Shown: positions 1,881 through 21,908 of the stretch, one piece after another
Layout of the letters: each line of letters opens with the position of its first letter
Position numbering within the stretch: position 1 is the first letter of the stretch
Source of the DNA: Pelagibius sp.
GTDB lineage: Bacteria > Pseudomonadota > Alphaproteobacteria > Kiloniellales > Kiloniellaceae
NCBI RefSeq assembly: GCF_028289705.1
Contig: NZ_JANQOI010000073.1
Span: 1 to 38,681, forward strand
DNA: 38,681 bases
Reading direction: 5' to 3'
The notes under the pieces: generated by a model
Database searches by the model: none
Seen by the model: the letters and a program-made list of their open reading frames with translations, nothing else
What the model was told of the DNA's origin: nothing
Made by a program: the position numbers and the translations under genes

Positions 1881-2756
1881 TCATGCCAGCACCTGGGAGA
1901 GGGTGGTGTAGAGGCGCAGCAGGGCCGATTGCGGCGGCTGGTCGCTGCGGTGGAAGGCGCAGCCCCAGCCCAGCGCACGGGCGATATCCTGCAGGCCTTC
2001 GCGCTGGTCCCTGAGGCGTTTGGCATAGTCGCCGCGCACCGCCTCGACCCGCGAAACCAGCCAGGGCGCTTCCTGTTCCAATCCTTCGAACCTCACCCGT
2101 CCGTCATAGGGCAGACTCTCCTCGGCCGGGTCGAGCACCTGCAGCAGGGTGCCGCGCACACCGCTCTCGCCATAATAGCGCAGGGCCCTGTCGATCTCCG
2201 GCAGAGGCGCAAGAAAGTCGCCTATGAGAACAAGTTGTGCGCTGCGCGGCAGCGGCAAGGTCGGCGGCAGCTCTTCGGCGGGCTGGTTGGCGCTTTCCAG
2301 CAGCACGGCAATGCGCGACAGGGTGGCGCGGCTGTTGGAGGGTCGCAGGCCCGAGCCCAACAGGGCGACATGCTCGCCGCCGCGCATCAGCAGCACCGAC
2401 AGCGCCAGGGTCAGCAGGTCGGTCCGGTCGCGCTTGGTCTGGTGGTTGCGGTCCGAGGTCCAGGCCATGGAGGCCGAGGTGTCGCGCCAGATCCAGACCG
2501 ACTGCGCGGCCTCCCACTCCATCTGGCGGACGAAGACCATGTCCGACTTCGCGGATTGCCGCCAGTCGATGGACTGTGGCTGATCGCCCATGTCGTAGTG
2601 GCGGAACTGCCAGAAGGTCTCGCCCTGGCCGACGCGGCGGCGCCCGTGGACGCCCTGGGCAACGGTGGCGGCGACCCGCTCGGCAGCGACCAGCAGCGGC
2701 GGCAGCGTGGCCGCCAACTGTTCGGCACGGTGCCGAAGCGGAAGGGTTGTTGTCAT
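1881..2756 (-). CDS. DUF58 domain-containing protein
   Basis: The 291-aa product has the DUF58 signature at about residues 54-82 (YDMGDQPQSIDWRQSAKSD, then VRQMEWE), followed by a von Willebrand-like metal-site motif DTSASM at residues 92-97. This arrangement matches DUF58 proteins encoded next to MoxR ATPases. No membrane segment is seen, so it is probably cytosolic or peripheral. It lies between the MoxR gene upstream (78 bp gap) and the BatA/DUF4159 gene downstream (40 bp gap). That order is common in alphaproteobacteria. The MoxR ATPase is presumed to remodel or load metal into partners with vWA domains, of which this is a likely one. The exact function is not known for the family. Confidence 0.9.
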   Translation of the reverse strand: MTTTLPLRHRAEQLAATLPPLLVAAERVAATVAQGVHGRRRVGQGETFWQFRHYDMGDQPQSIDWRQSAKSDMVFVRQMEWEAAQSVWIWRDTSASMAWTSDRNHQTKRDRTDLLTLALSVLLMRGGEHVALLGSGLRPSNSRATLSRIAVLLESANQPAEELPPTLPLPRSAQLVLIGDFLAPLPEIDRALRYYGESGVRGTLLQVLDPAEESLPYDGRVRFEGLEQEAPWLVSRVEAVRGDYAKRLRDQREGLQDIARALGWGCAFHRSDQPPQSALLRLYTTLSQVLA

Positions 2757-2834
2757 CGGCGCCCGGGTACCCCGCGTCCCGCCCCGCTTGGCGCCGGCCC
2801 CTTCGCGGCCGCTTTCATGGTGACCAGGAACCGC

Positions 2835-3848
2835 TCAGGCATAGGGCGCCGTGAGATGCGCGATGATGTGGTCCAGCGTCACCCCGTCGGCGCGGGCCGC
2901 GAAGCTGAGGGCCATGCGGTGCTTCAGCACCGGCCGGGCCAGGGCGACCACATCGTCGACCGAGGGGGCCAGACGCCCGTCGAGCAGCGCGCGGGCGCGC
3001 ACTGCCAGCATCAGGGCCTGGCTGGCGCGGGGCCCGGGGCCCCAGGCGACCTGGCTGCGGACCTCGTCCAGCTCGCTGGCTTCCGGCCGTCCGTTGCGCA
3101 CCAGGGCGAGAATCGCCTCCACCACGCTTTCGCCCACCGGCACGCGGCGCACCAGTCGCTGCAGGGTCATCAACTCCTCGGCGTTCATCACCGCTGTCGC
3201 CTCCGCCTGTTCCGGGCCGGTGGTCTCGATCAGCATCTGCCGCTCGGCCTCCAGTTCCGGATAGCCGACGTCGATCTCCAGCAGGAAGCGGTCGAGCTGC
3301 GCCTCGGGCAGCGGATAGGTGCCTTCCTGCTCCAGCGGGTTCTGGGTCGCCAGCACGTGGAAGGGAGCCGGCAGGTCGTGGGCGTGGCCGGCCACCGTCA
3401 CCCGGTGTTCCTGCATCGCCTGCAGCAGGGCCGACTGGGTGCGCGGACTGGCGCGGTTGATTTCGTCGGCCATCAGCAGTTGGCAGAAAACCGGCCCGGG
3501 AATGAAGCGGAAGGACCGCCTGCCCGATTCGCTTTCCTCCAGCACCTCTGAGCCCAGGATGTCCGCCGGCATCAGATCCGGGGTGCACTGCACCCGCTTG
3601 TCCTCCAGCCCGAAGACGGTGCCCAGGGTTTCCACCAGGCGGGTCTTGGCCAGGCCCGGCACGCCGATCAGCAGCGCGTGGCCGCCGGACAGCAGGGTGA
3701 TAAGGGTTTGATCGACGACCTCTTGTTGGCCGAAAATGACCTGTCCGATGCTCTCGCGCACAAGCTTCAGCTTGTCGCCGAGTTCATCGATCTGTTCGGC
3801 CAGCCCGGCGGCGGCTCCATCGGTTCGCTCAGTGGGGGTCGTTGTCAC
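2835..3848 (-). CDS. MoxR-family AAA+ ATPase
   Basis: This is an AAA+ ATPase of the MoxR family with a Walker A motif GVPGLAKT at about residues 62-69 and a Walker B motif LLMADE at about 124-129, followed by NRASPRTQSALLQAM and the sensor-type strand HVLATQNPLEQEGTYPLPEA. I start it at a GTG (3846-3848) that follows GGAG by ten bases and gives a 337-aa protein of the usual length. An in-frame ATG at 3923 would add 25 residues that do not look conserved and would leave only 27 bp to the divergent gene. MoxR ATPases are chaperone-like proteins that act on vWA-domain partners, and here DUF58 and BatA-type genes follow directly. The 102-bp gap to the divergent DUF1285 gene should hold both promoters. 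Confidence 0.92.
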   Translation of the reverse strand: MTTTPTERTDGAAAGLAEQIDELGDKLKLVRESIGQVIFGQQEVVDQTLITLLSGGHALLIGVPGLAKTRLVETLGTVFGLEDKRVQCTPDLMPADILGSEVLEESESGRRSFRFIPGPVFCQLLMADEINRASPRTQSALLQAMQEHRVTVAGHAHDLPAPFHVLATQNPLEQEGTYPLPEAQLDRFLLEIDVGYPELEAERQMLIETTGPEQAEATAVMNAEELMTLQRLVRRVPVGESVVEAILALVRNGRPEASELDEVRSQVAWGPGPRASQALMLAVRARALLDGRLAPSVDDVVALARPVLKHRMALSFAARADGVTLDHIIAHLTAPYA

Positions 3849-20112: not shown

Positions 20113-20751
20113 TCACAGGGTATCGGCCAGTCCTGCGGCTGCGCGCCTTTCTTCCAGGCGTGCCAACTCTTCATCGCGCGCGTCTGCCAGGTCCTTGCCG
20201 CTGTCCTCGCAGGAAATCTCTCTTTCGCGATCCTCGCAGCGGCGAACGGCCGCATCGATCTGCTCTTGCCAGCGCGCCTCGATTTCCTGCCGGCGTTCAC
20301 CGAACCAGGCATCCCTGGCATCGACCGAGTCGAAGACCAGCGGTTCCATGGGCAGGAAGAGCCGTTCCGGGTAGACCTGTCCGGCGCCGCTGGCACCGTC
20401 GATCAGGATGCCGATGCTCCCACCGAGCAGGATATTGCCGAAGATCCAGCCGTCGGCCTCCGTATCGAGGTAGGCGACATGGCGGTGATAGTCCTCGGCC
20501 TCGCAGATCACCGTGATGGGTGCGGCCTTGGCCGGCAGGTTCACCATGGCCGGAGTCAGCACCTGGTGGATGTAGTGATGCCCGTAGAACTTGCAGACCA
20601 CCGCGGGGGGGTCGGTTTCGATGTTGGTCTCGGTGACGTTGGTGCTGGCGATGCTGGCGCAGCCGCCGGGCAGGAGCAGACCGGCAAGCACCAGCGCCTC
20701 TCGCAGCCGCGATGTCACAGCCGTCGCGAAAAGGGTCTCTTTCCTGACCAT
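20113..20751 (-). CDS. Lipoprotein with glycine-rich membrane-like segment
   Basis: The 212-aa product has a signal peptide with lipobox LLPGGC, cysteine at about residue 31. The middle carries WIFGNILLGGSIGILIDGAS followed by GAGQVYPERLFLPM, a pattern common in small proteobacterial lipoproteins that follow a PEGA-like beta domain (GHHYIHQVLTPAMVNLPAKA). The C-terminal third is a charged helix rich in Glu and Arg with two cysteines, probably a coiled coil. It likely sits at the cell envelope. It converges on the YajG-like gene with 33 bp between stops. No specific role can be given. Confidence 0.78.
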   Translation of the reverse strand: MVRKETLFATAVTSRLREALVLAGLLLPGGCASIASTNVTETNIETDPPAVVCKFYGHHYIHQVLTPAMVNLPAKAAPITVICEAEDYHRHVAYLDTEADGWIFGNILLGGSIGILIDGASGAGQVYPERLFLPMEPLVFDSVDARDAWFGERRQEIEARWQEQIDAAVRRCEDREREISCEDSGKDLADARDEELARLEERRAAAGLADTL

Positions 20752-21095
20752 CCGTCTGCCTGACCTCCTGTTTGCTTCCCGGTCGTTCGCCGCGCCGCCG
20801 GGTGACGCTAGGCTAGCGGGCAGCGGCGGGAAAATCCATTGCCGGCATAAAACCCCAGCGTTTGTACTGCGCCGATGCTCGGGGTGAGCCGGCAGCTTGC
20901 GTGCCCCTGGGCTGTCCCAGCTCCGGGCTCATCCTCTGCCGCCCGCCGCCGCTTGCTTTCGCTCCTGCGAAGAAGGTGAGAAACTGGGCCTATCCGGACA
21001 CGAATTGCCTGCTGTCCGGACACCGAAATCCTTGGAATCCCGGCGCATTTCCCTCATGTCGCGGGGCGGTGAGCCGCGAGAAAGCATATCGAGCT
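20752..21095. other. Intergenic stretch before the RHH/EF-hand gene
   Basis: This 344-bp gap lies between a minus-strand lipoprotein start and the RHH/EF-hand start, so promoters for both should lie here. Two overlapping open frames cross it without protein-like character. No convincing promoter, repeat or RNA was found by eye. Confidence 0.5.
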
Positions 21096-21908
21096 ATGAG
21101 CAAGAAAACCGAAACCATCGAACTGCGGGTCTCCCCCGAGCTCAAGTCCGACCTGGGCGCGCTGAGCCGGGACCGAGGCCAGCCGATGAGCGAGACCATT
21201 CGCCAGCTCATTGCCCGCGAGGTCGCAGCCACCGCTCAAGGCAAGACAATCCAAGGAGATTTTGGAATGAGCACCAGGGCACAAGGGCGCCGCCTCGCGA
21301 CGGCCGGCGCGGTCGCATTGACGCTGGCCGGCGTGGGTTTCGCAATCGCGGCCCAGTCCGATGCCTACGCACAGGCGGAGGCGCGCCGGACCTTCGCGGA
21401 GTTCGACGTCAACGCCGACGGCAAGGTCACGCGCGACGAGGTCGGGCAGGTCATGCAGGAGATGATCGGCGAATTCAGGGCCGCGGCGCCGTCCGGCGGT
21501 ACGCCGGCCTGCCAGGCGGCGCTGAAGGACTTCGAAGCGTCGCTGGAGGCGATCGCCGGCGCCGAGTTTTCGGACATGGATGCCAACGGCGACGGCGAAG
21601 TGGTCTATGCGGAGGTGCGCGCCGCCATGGTCGCGGACCGCCAGGCGGAGTTCACCAGCCTGGACGAAAACGGCGACGGCGCGATCGCGTTCGCCGAGTT
21701 CTCGAAGATCGACGCGCTGTTCGAGGACGAGGACGAAACGGCAGAGGACGACCTCTTTGCGGCCGGCGAGGCGGCCTGCTTTGCCGAAGACGAGGGTCTG
21801 GAGCCGCTCGACAGCGCGTTCGAGGCCCGCATCCTGCGGATCGAGTTCGCCGAACTGGACCAGAACATGGACGGCAGCCTGACCCGTTCGGAGTTCGTCT
21901 CAAACTGA
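21096..21908 (+). CDS. Ribbon-helix-helix / membrane segment / four EF-hand protein
   Basis: The frame from ATG 21096 codes for 270 aa. Residues 5-45 look like a CopG-type ribbon-helix-helix DNA-binding domain: strand TIELRV, helix SPELKSDLGALSRDRG, helix PMSETIRQLIAREVA. A hydrophobic segment follows at about 67-87 (LATAGAVALTLAGVGFAIAA) and ends in AYAQA, which could be a signal-peptidase site. The rest holds four canonical 12-residue EF-hand loops: 104-115, 162-173, 190-201 and 255-266, each with Asp1, Asn3, Asp5, Gly6 and Glu12. A second start at 21267 (residue 58) has a perfect AAGGAG eight bases upstream and would give a plain secreted EF-hand protein. The gene may therefore make two products, or one start may be unused. 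Confidence 0.78.
   Translation: MSKKTETIELRVSPELKSDLGALSRDRGQPMSETIRQLIAREVAATAQGKTIQGDFGMSTRAQGRRLATAGAVALTLAGVGFAIAAQSDAYAQAEARRTFAEFDVNADGKVTRDEVGQVMQEMIGEFRAAAPSGGTPACQAALKDFEASLEAIAGAEFSDMDANGDGEVVYAEVRAAMVADRQAEFTSLDENGDGAIAFAEFSKIDALFEDEDETAEDDLFAAGEAACFAEDEGLEPLDSAFEARILRIEFAELDQNMDGSLTRSEFVSN
21253..21269 (+). promoter_or_regulatory. Internal Shine-Dalgarno and start codon
   Basis: AAGGAG at 21253-21258 is followed after eight bases by ATG at 21267, in frame with the upstream RHH reading. It is a stronger ribosome site than the one before 21096. It decides whether the EF-hand protein is made alone with its own signal peptide. Confidence 0.6.

Follow-up and report, generated by a model that had tools for sequence, protein, structure and literature searches.

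A ribbon-helix-helix head, a signal sequence and four EF-hands in one alphaproteobacterial frame with a predicted operator on its own gene

A single frame in a 38,681-nucleotide stretch of Pelagibius sp. DNA (the window, by which we mean the whole stretch) joins a ribbon-helix-helix (RHH) DNA-binding head, a membrane segment and four EF-hands. The frame (table 1) encodes 270 amino acids, is stop-free across all three parts in its ORF translation and is kept fused in its relatives, which bears out the one-frame composition put forward in the earlier note on this DNA. We think it fairly probable that the gene encodes a self-regulated exported Ca2+ binder, whose own regulator would precede the signal sequence and face the cytoplasm.

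Table 1. Features of the fusion gene and its upstream region, with positions in the window
Feature	Position	Strand	Evidence
Tandem operator, TATCCGGACA (20991-21000) and TGTCCGGACA (21013-21022), period 22 bp	20991-21022		Motif search
Weak -10-like TGGAAT, 42 nt after the start of site 1	21033-21038	+	Offset scan, inferred
Full frame: RHH, membrane/signal segment, four EF-hands, 270 aa	21096-21908	+	ORF and relatives
RHH head, residues 1-46; beta strand KKTETIELR; residue 7 is Thr	21096-21233	+	Profiles, conservation, selection
Internal Shine-Dalgarno AAGGAG	21253-21258	+	Anti-SD pairing -8.0 kcal/mol
Internal ATG, residue 58; start of probable short exported EF-hand form	21267-21269	+	Conservation
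Membrane segment / signal-peptide h-region, residues 67-87	21294-21356	+	Hydropathy 1.96 over 18 residues
Signal-peptidase I motif DAYA, residues 89-92, predicted cut after A92	21360-21371	+	Conservation
EF-hand loop 1, DVNADGKVTRDE	21405-21440	+	Pfam, loop conservation
EF-hand loop 2, DANGDGEVVYAE	21579-21614	+	Pfam, loop conservation
EF-hand loop 3, DENGDGAIAFAE	21663-21698	+	Pfam, loop conservation
EF-hand loop 4, DQNMDGSLTRSE	21858-21893	+	Pfam, loop conservation

Pfam recognizes four EF-hands in the window protein (EF-hand_1, E 3.3e-17, 61.1 bits against a cut-off of 25.4), and its loops follow the canonical 12-residue pattern D-x-[DN]-x-[DNS]-G-x5-E four times. Across a set of 15 members that includes the window protein, position 1 is Asp in 15/15 in all four loops, and position 12 is Glu in 15/15 in loops 2 to 4 and in 14/15 in loop 1, where Asp occurs once. 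The RHH_1 match at residues 8-43 of the window protein scores 17.1 bits, below the Pfam cut-off of 20.5, so that the case for a real head rests on conservation; eight of the 15 members, window included, match RHH_1 at E <= 0.1. Compared with the PDB, a profile of the heads matched RHH antitoxins at E 4.6e-4 to 0.011, and the winged-helix family was absent from the Pfam matches of the window protein and the 15-member set. The structure model is of moderate quality (mean pLDDT 64); its RHH helices (residues 14-27 and 31-47) reach about 63-72, whereas the membrane helix (64-85) stays below 50. Calmodulins ranked first for the EF part of this moderate model in a fold search (4cln, E 2.9e-5), which gave low target-normalized TM-scores of 0.16-0.44 among the matches listed. 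Two named EF-hand assignments were considered and rejected, namely lanmodulin (NCBIfam LanM, 23.4 bits against a cut-off of 135) and the type III effector XopAW (50.7 bits against an NCBIfam cut-off of 120, with the match limited to residues 85-204).

The first relatives to be found, all near full length, belong to Cochlodiniinecator piscidefendens (L008), a Paracoccaceae MAG (L009) and an uncultured Roseicyclus (L010); they are 37, 34 and 32% identical to the window protein in the best segment, and each has RHH, membrane segment and EF-hands in a single frame. A homolog search for both parts in one ORF, as the earlier note had suggested, led to 40 alphaproteobacterial members (window included), with RHH and membrane segment fused in all of them. 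These comprise the 15-member set and 25 members from the order of genome G205, and they include second genes at three loci (L107b, L108b and L110b). Duplicates were dropped (L032 and L033, the same proteins as L009 and L008; L094 and L118, the same genes as L014 and L098; and L119, the same as the L107 pair), as was L116, a 111-codon frame ending in the first EF-hand and lacking an upstream site. The second tandem gene of G1050 and the second match of G1384 are outside the counts, as are L136-L142, which were found after the 40-member counts were made.

The gene is scattered across the Alphaproteobacteria and absent from the window's sampled kin. Within the window's own family the RHH part was found in one of 23 genomes, the window's own, four others matching the EF part only; within its order it was again the window's own genome alone out of 61, seven genomes having any match and the other six matches beginning at position 41 or later. 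RHH and EF parts occur together in 5/385 genomes of the class (any match in 16), in 10/394 of the family of G274 (any match in 26) and in 24/299 of the order of G205, where all 26 matches begin at position 2 or 3. The last figure is a lower bound, since three genomes (G831, G835 and G844) caught by an RHH-only profile were missed by the full-length search of that order. Most members came from full-length matches, which favor fusions, and the RHH-only searches therefore matter. In 13 fusion genomes they recovered a single such head apiece, namely the fusion itself, with no further RHH paralogs at E <= 0.001 in these genomes. Among the 385 class genomes they gave five strong matches (E <= 3.4e-18), all of them the fusion, and nine weaker rows (E 4.7e-9 to 6.7e-7) that we do not claim as members. 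In a phylum sample the RHH-only profile matched 12 of 398 genomes at E <= 1e-9, all in the window's class, and the seven newly fetched loci all pass from RHH into a hydrophobic segment, six extending into an exported part and one (L142) stopping there. Plasmid records gave no match.

RHH is the best conserved part of the protein in the 15-member set, and K3, K4, T5, E9, R11, P14, E15, K17, S32 and R36 are invariant in 15/15 in the alignment (window included in both). The earlier note had held that its reading would fail if the codons upstream of residue 58 showed no purifying selection. RHH pN/pS is 0.047 and 0.116 in two close pairs, whose linkers give 0.35 and 1.1, and it ranges over 0.33-0.39 among four distant ones; it is the lowest of any gene part in all six pairs, which speaks for purifying selection on the RHH codons. 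In the close pairs (L012/L036 and L010/L034) the pS of the RHH, linker and signal codons is also below that of the EF part (0.21-0.36 against 0.57 in one pair and 0.28-0.41 against 0.74 in the other), the distant pairs being too diverged to judge such a gradient. This low-pS stretch corresponds by homology to positions 21096-21377 of the window, and it looks as if RNA-level signals constrain the stretch from RHH through linker to signal codons.

The search for an RHH operator upstream of the gene that the earlier note recommended turned up a palindrome pair at the expected place (table 1), and the site is common to most members. An exact TGTCNNGACA, usually as TGTCCGGACA, lies within 300 nt upstream in 31/40 members, against a background elsewhere in the same loci of three exact TGTCNNGACA in 181,760 bases, which amounts to 0.005 per 300 nt. 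The other nine comprise three close kin with TGTGGGGACA, four members with 7-of-8 near-matches, and L098 and L109 with neither; four of six later-found members have the site, and L137 and L138 are without one in 260 nt. Aligned on the first site, 22 of the 31 rows have a second copy at +22 with at least five of eight half-site letters, a count favored by the anchoring, which chose the register fitting the second site best and was also used in the -10 scan described below. Roughly one in three of the 31 has a weak second copy or none, L107 having no real partner, and in the consensus CGAA(T) follows both copies.

With at most two mismatches, the tandem pattern, which was derived from the fusion-gene sites themselves, is found at the fusion gene in 11 of the 14 genomes that carry this gene, the exceptions being G205, G240 and G514. 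A wider regulon defined by this operator was rejected, as the 14 genomes gave seven off-gene matches, all with two mismatches, against six for the reversed control. Exact copies of TGTCCGGACA as a single site were counted in the window's genome alone, which has three; apart from the one at the fusion gene, both are internal to ORFs. What the tandem operator indicates is regulation of the gene that carries it, not a wider Ca2+ response. A scan for TATAAT-like hexamers in the 31 members gave a mean of 2.26 of 6 at the best of 50 offsets (overall 1.32, sd 0.34), the next-best being 2.10 at offset 32, and scans with the sigma-70 consensus found no promoter in the window. Operators placed just before this weak -10-like position suggest that the head may repress its own gene. 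In a literature search with the palindrome string, the titles among the matches listed concern p53 and its relatives or unrelated work. On the other side of the operator, an ORF at window positions 20113-20751 (minus strand), which we take from resemblance to be lipoprotein-like, is divergent from the fusion gene, the operator lying in their common intergenic region.

In known RHH proteins the strand on which residue 7 would sit contacts DNA bases, and in this family the center of the site co-varies with that residue. All five members with Lys7 have TGTCATGACA upstream and none of the 35 without Lys7 does (Fisher 1.5e-6); in the 26 of these 35 that have exact sites, the centers are CG 26 times and GG, AG and CT once each. 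Lys7 requires at least three changes (gains or losses) on a protein tree whose columns include residue 7, and the pairing of Lys7 with TGTCATGACA is therefore not one inherited pair. A sixth Lys7 member found later (L141) again has TGTCATGACA upstream. Leu7 occurs in three members, which are close kin and all have TGTGGGGACA, and both members lacking E9 lack the site, which is present in 31 of the 38 with E9. The co-variation is strong evidence for binding of the head to its own promoter, which is very probable. As the relatives share the joined layout, most with the site upstream, autoregulation of the gene by the protein is probable.

A linker Met, situated between the head and the membrane segment, occurs in 36/40 members, the exceptions being L013, L096, L105 and L107b. 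At the first ATG of the window gene anti-SD pairing is +0.2 kcal/mol, against -8.0 at the internal start, and with no Shine-Dalgarno sequence at its first ATG the long form may be made poorly in this organism. Pairing of -4.4 kcal/mol or stronger precedes 31 of the 36 linker Mets, as compared with 33 of the 174 that lie in the EF part (Mann-Whitney p 1.6e-10), in a comparison that used the Met nearest the membrane segment and a threshold set after the values were known; the linker Mets with weaker pairing are those of L014, L095, L103, L107 and L112. In six of the 36 the nearest Met coincides with the edge of the membrane segment or falls within it, which leaves almost no n-region and makes a poor export start. 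Gly codons just 5' of the start are GGA in 11/12 cases and 15/235 elsewhere in the 15-member set, for which internal starts were picked by eye, and in 13/20 and 53/595, respectively, in the larger set, for which the linker Met with the best Shine-Dalgarno was taken, a choice that favors GGA. This bias suggests that nucleotides, beyond the residues alone, are kept. Given an in-frame ribosome-binding site and ATG in most members, a short exported form is probably made from the internal start, plausibly as a second way to a free EF-hand protein besides cleavage, one that the earlier note had not mentioned.

Small residues at -3 and -1 are the established mark of signal-peptidase I cleavage. In the 15-member set the residue equivalent to A92 (-1) is Ala in 15/15 and -3 is Ala, Val or Ser in 15/15. 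In the 40 members, net positive charge lies ahead of the hydrophobic core in 39 and an AxA-like motif follows the core in 38 (not in L108 and L117). The features of a Sec/signal-peptidase I substrate (n-region charge, core and -3/-1) are all present in the sequence. Members without an internal Met, for example L013, keep the cleavage motif, suggesting that the long form itself is probably cut by signal peptidase. The earlier note had proposed two outcomes, a tethered chain or release by cleavage, and either would be plausible. Two or four Cys are found in the exported part in 14/15 members of the smaller set and none in 18 of the other 25 members; two conserved Cys columns were considered and rejected, the column count giving none owing to alignment gaps.

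The EF-hands are not an obligatory partner of the head, as seen at L108b, L139, L141 and L142. The same head is joined to a TonB_C domain at L139 (1063-1656, minus strand; Pfam E 1.2e-7, above the cut-off), with TGTCCGGACACGAAAA upstream. The second head at L108 (L108b, 2388-2939, minus strand) is followed by a part that is weakly TonB_C-like (E 0.011, below the cut-off), and at L141 (1027-1638, minus strand) the head precedes a domain without a Pfam match beyond the head. The swapped cargo suggests that the head may be a module for exported proteins, mostly EF-hand ones. We tentatively raise the possibility, which we would not yet favor, that an RHH plus signal-sequence head is a general self-regulation module of exported proteins with swappable cargo, by which export, cleavage or ligand state could be reported to the promoter without any other protein. 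RHH-EF genes also stand side by side in tandem in G1050 (L098/L118), G1066 (L107/L119) and G895 (L110). Several further observations concern these loci. TGTCCGGACA is found upstream of both TonB_C-type fusions, and some tandem RHH-EF pairs have differing operator-like sequences; in one gene of the L098 pair Lys replaces Glu at residue 9 and TGTCNNGACA is absent. The minus-strand frame of L142 has 138 codons that encode RHH and membrane segment only, followed by an immediate stop, with TGTACGGACACGAAA near the frame start and another same-strand frame just downstream, presumably for an exported rhodanese judging by resemblance.

The computational support covers the fused frame and the selection on it, the operator and the way it co-varies with the head, the signal for an internal start, and the cleavage motif; DNA binding itself, repression, internal-start use, cleavage and any Ca2+ input are inferred. 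We predict that the 270-residue long product would span the inner membrane with its N-terminus inside, and that its RHH head would dimerize and bind the pair of TGTCCGGACA-like sites on its own promoter, most likely repressing it. The start at codon 58 and probable cleavage after A92 would give a mature periplasmic EF-hand protein. Synthesis would then deliver the exported Ca2+ binder plus a membrane-tied copy of the autoregulator, and as the two would be made together, feedback would hold the output. In turn, the dimerization or lifetime of the tethered head may depend on whether the EF part is loaded with Ca2+, exported or cleaved. The earlier note had read the gene as a route from periplasmic Ca2+ to transcription; the conserved fused frame and an upstream operator stand, and an effect of periplasmic Ca2+ on DNA binding would be a further, hypothetical step.

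A different reading of the same layout is an uncleaved Ca2+ sensor of the ToxR/CadC kind, in which periplasmic EF-hands would alter RHH dimerization and thereby control the gene itself and perhaps others, the internal start and cleavage being minor. The order of parts is the same (an N-in DNA-binder, one membrane helix and a periplasmic sensor), and the roughly 20-residue linker, the Asp at position 1 of all four loops in 15/15 and the presence of an operator on the gene itself all agree with it. Against it stand the signal-peptidase motif, found in 15/15 and also in L013, which has no internal Met, making cleavage of the long form probable, conservation of the internal start signal in most members, and a tandem operator no more frequent elsewhere than in the control; we consider such a sensor possible but rather unlikely. 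A two-step release seems improbable to us, in which signal peptidase would free the EF-hand protein and an intramembrane protease would then free the RHH stub, the head reporting the amount exported, although it would accommodate both a cleavage motif after the membrane segment even where the internal Met is missing and L142, with RHH and membrane segment alone and a stop directly after.

The remaining explanations deny the link between head and operator or between head and cargo. If the palindrome were the site of another regulator and the RHH head acted otherwise, for example in partition or antitoxin-like binding, the lack of an exact site in 9/40 members would be easily understood; the co-variation of the site center with head residue 7, and a tandem site no commoner elsewhere than in the control, make this very unlikely. 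Still harder to credit are two separate genes with accidental read-through, or a mis-called start, for which the strong Shine-Dalgarno at codon 58 of the window gene and its lack at codon 1 could be cited. The earlier note had named a stop codon between the parts, or homologs that consistently begin at residue 58, as grounds for giving up the fusion. The frame is open from RHH to membrane segment in 40/40 members and the RHH-only searches agree, on which grounds separate genes or a missed stop were rejected; purifying selection on the RHH codons and the four members without an internal Met also speak against them. RHH-bearing relatives start earlier than residue 58, although distant exported EF-hand proteins without RHH do exist (eight were inspected).

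Membrane-tethered one-component regulators of the ToxR/CadC type (compare PMC5430869) have an N-terminal cytoplasmic DNA-binder, a single membrane helix and a periplasmic sensor in one chain, an arrangement that the fusion would share, judging by its hydropathy, charge and domain order. The fusion differs in having RHH rather than a winged helix, plus four EF-hands, and in its signal-peptidase motif, internal start and operator apparently on its own gene. RHH autoregulators of the CopG/Arc/MetJ fold bind palindromes on their own promoters, and the head profile matches DinJ (9lew, E 4.6e-4) and VapB26 (5x3t, E 1.1e-3), with plasmid ParG (1p94) at E 0.43. RHH antitoxins and ParG are soluble proteins with a toxin or partition protein as partner, whereas the head of the fusion is joined to a signal sequence and an exported domain. 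Calmodulins share the EF-hand fold; the fusion is bacterial, probably exported and has long inserts between the loops.

Caulobacter CaBP, a protein of 133 aa with three EF-hands and a Sec signal that acts with a separate sigma factor, SigV, is like the fusion an exported EF-hand protein in a regulatory loop; its regulator is a separate protein, and RHH is not mentioned in the accessible part of that report (PMC13171946). EfhP of Pseudomonas is a periplasmic EF-hand protein linked to regulation in the accessible parts of two reports (PMC9132961, PMC4053335). CaBP-SigV is the nearest reported circuit that we saw among the literature matches, which were available in part. A literature search that covered few subscription papers returned none with both ribbon-helix-helix and EF-hand, and none with ribbon-helix-helix, EF-hand and transmembrane either; searches on membrane-tied regulators, EF-hand regulation and in-frame internal starts gave no such system among the matches listed, as far as their accessible text goes. 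New here are the operator and its co-variation with residue 7, the internal start, the conserved cleavage motif and the TonB_C-like cargo.

Little is understood of how bacteria convert Ca2+ outside the cell or in the periplasm into gene control. In the fusion family a single chain holds both a Ca2+ binder and a DNA-binding head and comes with a predicted operator, a system testable with one gene and one promoter, in which Thr, Lys and Leu at residue 7 form a natural specificity-change set. It suggests that a signal sequence can carry an autoregulator, which may match the synthesis of an exported protein to its export.
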